Origin: Pachyseris speciosa
Taxonomy: Eukaryota > Cnidaria > Anthozoa > Scleractinia > Pachyseridae
NCBI GenBank assembly: GCA_016490735.1
Contig: JAEMWC010000445.1
Coordinates: forward strand, 287,501-351,500
DNA length: 64,000 nt
Direction of reading: 5' to 3'
Shown in pieces: positions 46,769 through 47,709 of the stretch. The translations under genes and the position numbers were made by a program. Positions within the stretch are counted from its first letter, which is position 1. Each line of letters opens with the position of its first letter. The notes under the pieces are model-generated. The model saw only the letters and a program-made list of their open reading frames with translations. It was not told the origin of the DNA and ran no database searches.

Positions 46769-47070
46769 TTTTTAAAACATTTTTATCGCTTAGTTCAGAT
46801 CGAAACATATGAATCAGTTTAGCGGCCACTTCGCTGAATCATGCAAATTTTCTTCTACTGAAAATTTGGACCCAGTGGTTTCAAATGAGTTCAATTCACG
46901 GAAAACGTTGGTCAATCAAGTATCCTTTTAGTCTTCCGGCCTGAGCACCGAAGCATTGTGAAGCAAGGATACTTCACAAATTAATGTGATCAAGTAAGCT
47001 GAAGCCACTCAAAGGGCACTAAGGCCACAAGGTAGCGGCATTATCCCTTAAATCTACCAAAGCAAAGATT

Positions 47071-47151
47071 GAGCCCAAGCATTAGCAGCCATGGACAGCT
47101 GTTTCGGCCTTGTTAGGCCTCATCAGCATGGCATAGCTAATGCTCAGGCTC
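47071..47151 (-). ncRNA. Hammerhead ribozyme, unit 1
   Basis: The minus strand gives the core CUGAUGA (plus 47120-47126), stem II GGCC...GGCC, GAAA (plus 47102-47105), then ACAGCUGUC. Stem III is the self-complementary ACAGCUGU with almost no loop, so activity is expected mainly in dimers. Stem I is long: GAGCCUGAGCAUUAGC pairs with GCUAAUGCUUGGGCUC, then an inner CCAUG/CAUGG. Predicted cleavage follows GUC, between plus 47094 and 47095. Type I, minus-strand transcript. Confidence 0.9.
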
Positions 47152-47322
47152 AAGTACCCACATATCAATAAAACAAGCAATGAAAACGTAAAGCTTGTGG
47201 ATGTGGCTGGAGTGACAAGGATACTTCACAAATTAATGTGATCAAGTAAGTTGAAGCCACTCAAAGGGCACTAAGGCCACAAGGTAGCGGGATTATCCCT
47301 TAAATCTACCAAAGCAAAGATT

Positions 47323-47403
47323 GAGCCCAAGCATTAGCAGCCATGGACAGCTGTTTCGGCCTTGTTAGGCCTCATCAGCATGGCATAGCTAATGCTCAGG
47401 CCC
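47323..47403 (-). ncRNA. Hammerhead ribozyme, unit 2
   Basis: Same core and stems as unit 1. One change in the outer part of stem I (CTCAGGCCC in place of CTCAGGCTC on the plus strand) weakens only the distal pair. Confidence 0.88.
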
Positions 47404-47576
47404 AAGTACCCACATATCAATAAGACAAGCAATGAAAATGTAAAGCTTGTGGGATGTGGCTGGAGTGACAAGGATACTTCACAAATTAATGTGATCAAGT
47501 AAGCTGAAACCACTCAAAGGGCACTAAGGCCACAAGGTAGCGGGCATTATCCCTTAAATCTACCAAAGCAAAGATT

Positions 47577-47659
47577 GAGCCCAAGCATTAGCAGCCATGG
47601 ACAGCTGTTTCGGCCTAATGTTAGGCCTCATCAGCATGGCATAGCTAATGCTCAGGCTC
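47577..47659 (-). ncRNA. Hammerhead ribozyme, unit 3
   Basis: The core is unchanged. The stem II loop reads GGCCUAACAUUAGGCC: the two added bases extend stem II by UAA/UUA pairs, so pairing is kept although the sequence differs. Confidence 0.88.
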
Positions 47660-47709
47660 AAGTACCCACATACCAATAAAACAAGCAATGAAAACGTTTT
47701 CATTGTGAA

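Follow-up and report, generated by a model that had tools for sequence, protein, structure and literature searches.

Retrozymes are known from stony corals (PMC7229834), and the closest described counterparts of the element analyzed here are the metazoan non-LTR retrozymes reported by Cervera and de la Pena (2020, PMC7229834), above all those found in Acropora millepora, a stony coral. As presented in the available text of that paper, metazoan retrozymes are multicopy tandem repeats of about 150-450 bp that have a GC content under 50%, carry a type I hammerhead in every unit, lack LTRs and show target duplications that, when present, exceed 4 bp; self-cleavage and the presence of circular RNA in tissue also characterize the group. 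The LTR retrozymes of plants (PMC4918200) resemble our element in being non-autonomous, in carrying hammerheads within repeats and in having a proposed circular RNA stage (PMC7229834, PMC7761336), but differ in their type III hammerhead, their LTRs with a tRNA primer site and their 4-bp duplications (PMC7229834, PMC7761336). Both LINEs and Penelope-like elements (PLEs) have been proposed to mobilize retrozymes, with PLEs favored on the grounds of shared hammerheads, tandem copies and co-existence (PMC7229834).

PLEs follow a plan in which an inverted copy stands head-to-head with another, with an optional tail on one of them (PMC3846280). With the purified protein of an anole PLE, reverse transcription begins internally on the RNA, at two sites that bound the tail and lie in an AC-rich stem-loop, and both DNA strands are extended (PMC11167929). 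Ribozyme cleavage was not needed in this in vitro system, in which unprocessed RNA was the main substrate (PMC11167929).

Within its available text, PMC7229834 does not describe double arrays joined head-to-head with 3' ends at two preferred positions, and the word 'inverted' is absent from its main text; PMC11167929 does not mention retrozymes. Among the papers listed on these subjects, no title or abstract opening reported head-to-head retrozyme insertions or PLE-type ends. What is new in the present analysis is the insertion mode; the kind of element is already known.

A hammerhead array of the metazoan retrozyme type

The window, a 64,000-nt stretch of Pachyseris speciosa DNA (contig C445, 287501-351500), is part of a 983.7 Mb assembly of 2368 contigs. 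At least 120 homologues match the Kelch protein encoded nearby, and the 9 of those listed that have an organism name all come from Oculina, Montipora or Porites, which points to a stony coral as the probable host. Tandem Repeats Finder identified an array with a period of 252, 2.9 copies and 96% matches (Table 1). A preliminary description had counted three direct units of 252-253 bp. Two minus-strand units are indeed 252 and 253 bp long, but the third is partial (229 bp); all three hammerheads are complete, that of the partial unit included.

Table 1. Positions of the array, its junctions and other features in the window (u, position within the repeat unit)
Feature	Position	Strand	Remarks
Retrozyme array (A arm)	46964..47697	-	RNA sense on the minus strand; 2.9 units, each about 252-254 nt
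Hammerhead copy 1, type I	47088..47132	-	RF00163 33.9 bits, E 1.7e-6; predicted cut between 47094/47093
Hammerhead copy 2, type I	47340..47384	-	RF00163 33.9 bits, E 1.7e-6; predicted cut between 47346/47345
Hammerhead copy 3, type I	47594..47640	-	RF00163 32.1 bits, E 6.5e-6; predicted cut between 47600/47599
Stretch between inferred start sites B and A, u175-u128, middle unit	47173..47219	-	Coordinates by hand
Short opposite (B) arm ACGTTTTCATTG	47694..47705	+	u159-u170 with a G variant; 4-nt overlap with array end
20-nt palindrome CAATGAAAACGTTTTCATTG where the arms meet	47686..47705	.	At RNA 5' end of the array
Target-site repeat, low copy CATTGTGAAGCA	46954..46965	.	Last 2 bases common to array end
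Target-site repeat, high copy CATTGTGAAAGCA	47701..47713	.	First 5 bases common to B arm
Four closely similar tRNA-like sequences	27778-27849, 28026-28098, 44740-44812, 45608-45682		Rfam

Consistent with the hammerheads proposed for the minus strand, the Rfam type I model RF00163 matched 3/3 units at 32.1-33.9 bits, with E-values that refer to the 901 bases searched. These scores lie 0.1-1.9 bits under the Rfam gathering cut-off of 34, which is why the hammerheads are absent from a whole-window scan at gathering scores and were found by E-value. All three copies contain the motifs CTGATGA, stem II, CGAAA and CTGTC followed by CATGG, with a predicted cut at GUC/CAUGG. The long stem I noted earlier consists of 6 bp, a small internal loop and about 18 bp; stem II has 5-6 bp, and the stem-loop II of copy 3 is 2 nt longer with pairing still possible. 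Stem III is made up of two pairs with an AGCU loop, and its palindrome ACAGCUGU would allow dimers. CRISPR, miRNA and snoRNA matches in the E-value scan fell far under their cut-offs and were taken as chance.

The 106-nt hammerhead strand folds with -50.8 kcal/mol (z -5.77; 0/200 shuffles equally stable), and a related unit, taken as a circular RNA of 254 nt, with -89.7 kcal/mol, where 100 shuffles that preserved mononucleotide composition averaged -59.2. In both the unconstrained 106-nt fold and the circular minimum-energy fold, CAGC pairs with the core GCTG. A fold in which the hammerhead stems and core are enforced lies 6.0 kcal/mol above the minimum, a point that counts against the explanation favored below.

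The unit is 252-254 bp long, has a GC content of 44-45%, lacks LTRs and is multicopy. Unit size, GC content, type I hammerhead and dispersed multicopy state agree with the available text of PMC7229834, in line with the retrozyme identity suggested at the outset, and the window element fits a metazoan non-LTR retrozyme, a kind already described from stony corals. A plant-type LTR retrozyme does not fit, as the type I model matches and the flank repeats are longer than 4 bp. No ORF of at least 100 aa was found inside 46964-47697, and a 254-bp unit is too short to hold reverse transcriptase and GIY-YIG endonuclease ORFs.

A short opposite arm and a target-site repeat at the window copy

The locus had been read as a simple tandem array. 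The direct units stand, but the RNA 5' end of the array carries a 12-nt arm of opposite orientation, and a target-site repeat of 12-13 nt flanks the whole insertion (Table 1). Unit positions (u) follow the most frequent unit of L066 (C483), a long related array, with numbering that begins at the predicted cut; on this scale the RNA 3' end of the window array (46964) is u131, corresponding to the end that we call A, and 12 bases of CAATGAAAACGTTTTCATTG fit an arm ending at u170, which we call B. As judged from its sequence, the window copy is a cryptic head-to-head case that looks like a plain trimer at first. L084 may be a second such case; it is a direct array that has a 15-nt repeat, with a few bases resembling a B arm in between. 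A 9-nt flank match of the window copy, GAAAACGTT, was rejected as no clean duplication, the true repeat being the CATTGTGAAGCA/CATTGTGAAAGCA pair.

The window insertion (46964-47713) occurs three times in the assembly, in the window, at L010 (C980) and at L011 (C1682), with flanks about 98% alike; L010 and L011 have exact target-site repeats of 13 and 12 nt, respectively. The triple occurrence of insertion and flanks represents segmental duplication or uncollapsed haplotypes.

Related insertions are mostly head-to-head, with 3' ends clustered at two sites

Searching the genome with the middle window unit gave at least 149 matches (40 of 1641 candidate places scored), and a second query gave at least 99 (40 of 1038 scored). 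We mapped 56 insertions, 38 from the first search and 18 of the 39 new places from the second, all of which were kept even though shared flanks (L020/L078, 166 nt; L056/L064, 97 nt) mean that these pairs may not be fully independent. Left out before the first-set counts were L009 (the window), L010 and L011 (the same insertion), L019 (the same place as L018) and L067 (another family); L068, which gave no match, also stands outside them. Among the places skipped in the second set were long arrays on C150, C1, C48 and C91. Where an end was truncated by N or by the limit of the fetched sequence, it was kept (e.g., L042, L048.2, L086, L087, L092 and L095).

The plain-array reading falls short for these relatives too. 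In 34/56 mapped insertions both outward ends are RNA 3' ends, giving head-to-head double arrays joined 5' to 5' (25/38 in the first set and 9/18 in the second, the latter share not being unbiased because strands and query coordinates were visible when that set was chosen). Strand switches are of the 5'-to-5' sense in 27/29 first-set and 10/11 second-set cases. The lone second-set exception comes from L087, whose piece at 90-136 belongs to another hammerhead family; this piece contributes a strand switch and a 5' end to the counts of that set and was dropped only from the unit-divergence comparison.

Outward 3' ends cluster at A (about u129; interval u126-132) and at B (about u170; interval u162-176), some 41 nt apart. 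With the intervals chosen on first-set data and kept fixed for the second set, they contain 50/63 and 19/27 outward 3' ends, and 3/13 and 1/9 outward 5' ends, in the first and second sets, respectively. The 21/90 outward 3' ends that lie outside both intervals, some of them where the fetched stretch stopped, count against the mode of insertion proposed below. Of the first-set insertions, 25 have 3' ends on both sides; A is combined with B in 14 of these, none has A+A or B+B, and 9 of the remaining 11 have a B end and a different point opposite. The inner points at which the two arms join vary among insertions. The circular fold predicts a stem-loop within the u175-u128 stretch; A and C predominate on its 5' side, and B falls at the open loop and 3' side. 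A single RNA 3' end, at the left of L020, falls on u254, immediately ahead of the predicted ribozyme cut.

Target-site repeats overlap the ends of the arms

Exact flank repeats of at least 12 nt were found at 17/38 first-set insertions versus 0/1404 mismatched flank pairs, matching the metazoan retrozymes in exceeding 4 bp, and repeats of at least 11 nt at 6/18 second-set insertions versus 0/306 mismatched pairs. Insertions of the A+B type nearly always have flank repeats of 10-16 nt: the shared word is at least 9 nt in 13/14 of the first set (8 nt in the other) and 13-15 nt in 4/4 of the second. Single-orientation first-set insertions, of which only 2/13 have a repeat of at least 12 nt, are a point against the mode of insertion proposed below.

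The repeats extend into the arms, by a mean of 2.6 nt on the B side over 17 loci (1-4 nt in 14/17) and by a mean of 1.3 nt on the A side over the same loci. Such microhomology between repeat and arm would follow from a short-lived pairing of the cut DNA end with the RNA ahead of synthesis.

Two further flank matches were not clean duplications, the 47-nt flank repeat of L053 (which also has a 15-nt word) and the flank word of L056; the word of L039 is mostly arm-like sequence with a 5-nt core. At the left flank of L052, a 13-nt repeat is set apart from the array by a 20-base, mostly-A filler.

PLEs of the same genome have comparable ends

A search for GIY-YIG endonucleases gave at least 150 matches (150 of 5249 candidates scored). 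Among the 150 matches listed, opposite-strand endonuclease pairs at most 6 kb apart, reviewed by hand, have the same sense as the retrozyme arms in 20/20 cases. Five PLE copies, fetched for being such pairs, are head-to-head with arms 98.4-99.9% alike, one arm being about 85-91 nt longer. These copies share flank words of 11-13 nt versus at most 8 nt in 20 mismatched pairs, and some of the words reach into the arms. By eye, a hammerhead-like core with one extra A lies upstream of both PLE ends; Rfam did not call this core.

PLEs are like the retrozyme in their head-to-head copies, one-arm tail, target-site repeats and hammerhead upstream of the start sites, and in having start sites in or near an AC-rich stem-loop. 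The spacing of the ends differs, at 30-40 bp for PLEs in print and about 85-91 nt in the fetched copies, compared with about 41 nt in the retrozyme with its 254-nt unit. The retrozyme also lacks a reverse transcriptase or endonuclease ORF and would be a user of such machinery, not a PLE. A further point against the parallel is that the start sites of the anole PLE shared no homology with the cut DNA, while microhomology is usual at retrozyme insertions. The retrozyme unit and the arm end of one PLE copy had only short chance-level matches in common; given no shared sequence with the compared PLE and the different tail lengths, we name no partner PLE. A supposed link between a GIY-YIG fragment and a hammerhead in L007 was dropped, as the two are about 0.9 kb apart on opposite strands.

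A proposed mode of insertion and its alternatives

We consider it probable that the retrozyme RNA, which is predicted to self-cleave and circularize, is inserted by PLE machinery at sites A and B. The simplest account, drawn by analogy with PLEs, would be that this machinery copies the retrozyme RNA in trans. The tandem hammerhead units, the clustered outward 3' ends, the head-to-head joints at variable points, the target-site repeats, the microhomology at B and the like plan of the five PLE copies can be read from the genome itself; we infer ribozyme cleavage, ligation into a circle, use of the circle and not a linear multimer as template, and the identity of the enzyme. The RNA would self-cleave at the hammerhead and then ligate into a circle, of about 252 nt for this locus as proposed earlier. 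A staggered cut of the target would supply two 3' ends as primers for reverse transcription, one at A (about u129) and one at B (about u170), and synthesis from each would run round the RNA template. In the window copy, B-side synthesis may have stopped after about 12 nt, with A-side synthesis having run 2.9 turns.

Insertion ends in a single genome suggest initiation of the PLE type and indicate where its two start sites would lie, so that the enzyme question becomes testable with purified PLE protein and 254-nt RNA. If the proposal is correct, the origin of retrozyme arrays would be explained and a natural circular RNA would join the templates of PLEs. The two-end signature is simple to look for in other animals.

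A broader reading, to which we give slightly better than even chances, is that animal retrozymes are circular-RNA parasites of PLE enzymes and that a head-to-head array is the footprint of two-sided rolling-circle reverse transcription. The enzyme would grip the stem-loop of the RNA circle and open both target strands, and priming from both strands at two fixed sites would carry synthesis several turns each way.

That the template is an RNA circle is likely, but less firmly so than the use of PLE machinery, and the evidence for the circle is modest. L066 consists of 34 unit pieces on two arms that differ by 0.03%, and 13/15 of its complete plus-strand units are identical. Across loci, units are more alike within than between loci (2.1% within-locus divergence versus 2.9% shuffled, p 0.001), although by a small margin. 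The opposite arms of loci diverge by a mean of 2.7%, and in 4/21 loci the arms differ more than units of different loci do, which argues against a circle. Alternatively, PLE machinery could copy a multimeric RNA that was transcribed from an existing array and stayed linear. The anole PLE works in vitro without ribozyme cleavage (PMC11167929) and some arrays, that of the window included (2.2%), are heterogeneous, as a linear donor would allow; mutation after insertion can, however, account for part of this heterogeneity, the 34 near-identical pieces of L066 would need an equally long and homogeneous donor, and the greater likeness of units within loci also speaks for the circle. We regard a linear template as possible, at perhaps one chance in four.

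Mobilization of the retrozyme by a LINE through target-primed reverse transcription, with the inverted arms arising by LINE twin priming, appears unlikely. LINEs, too, commonly leave target-site repeats of this size, and their twin priming yields inverted 5' ends, so both features would suit a LINE. The genome contains LINE-like reverse transcriptase fragments, such as an ORF at window positions 4213-4581 that resembles one by eye, and LINEs stand beside PLEs among the mobilizers proposed in PMC7229834. Against this, two start sites about 41 nt apart, one per flank, are the signature of a PLE tail, and the paired-start pattern is seen in the PLEs of this genome, in a genomic comparison that covered PLEs only.

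A third possibility is that the arrays are satellite DNA, which rearrangements of the DNA itself have dispersed and inverted, or that their inverted repeats were misassembled. This would be in keeping with the first description of hammerhead repeats as satellite DNA (PMC7229834), with the difficulty of assembling long inverted arrays such as L066 and with the real whole-locus duplication of the window insertion, but is very improbable. Individual insertions have target-site repeats while the sequence around them differs from locus to locus, flank similarity between different loci occurs only twice among 56, ends cluster and inversions are nearly all of one sense; misassembly at a palindrome should also have inverted the flank.

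Another hammerhead family and other features of the window

The genome contains another hammerhead family (L001-L008), with RF00163 scores of up to 51.1 bits; a search for it gave at least 66 places among the matches listed, with 74 of 127828 candidates scored. One of its members, L004, comprises two copies of opposite orientation with 109-nt arms that are 98% complementary, so this family may insert likewise.

At gathering scores, the whole-window Rfam scan returned only four tRNA matches (Table 1). These tRNA-like sequences are tRNA-Thr where ARAGORN calls them, and two of them lie in a 249-bp tandem duplication. The target of the L065 insertion resembles them. Elsewhere in the window, a 126-bp unit that encodes TPR repeats recurs 21.9 times (60987-63745) behind an AAA/NACHT-like domain, and a 118-bp direct duplication with 99% matches occupies 23627-23862.
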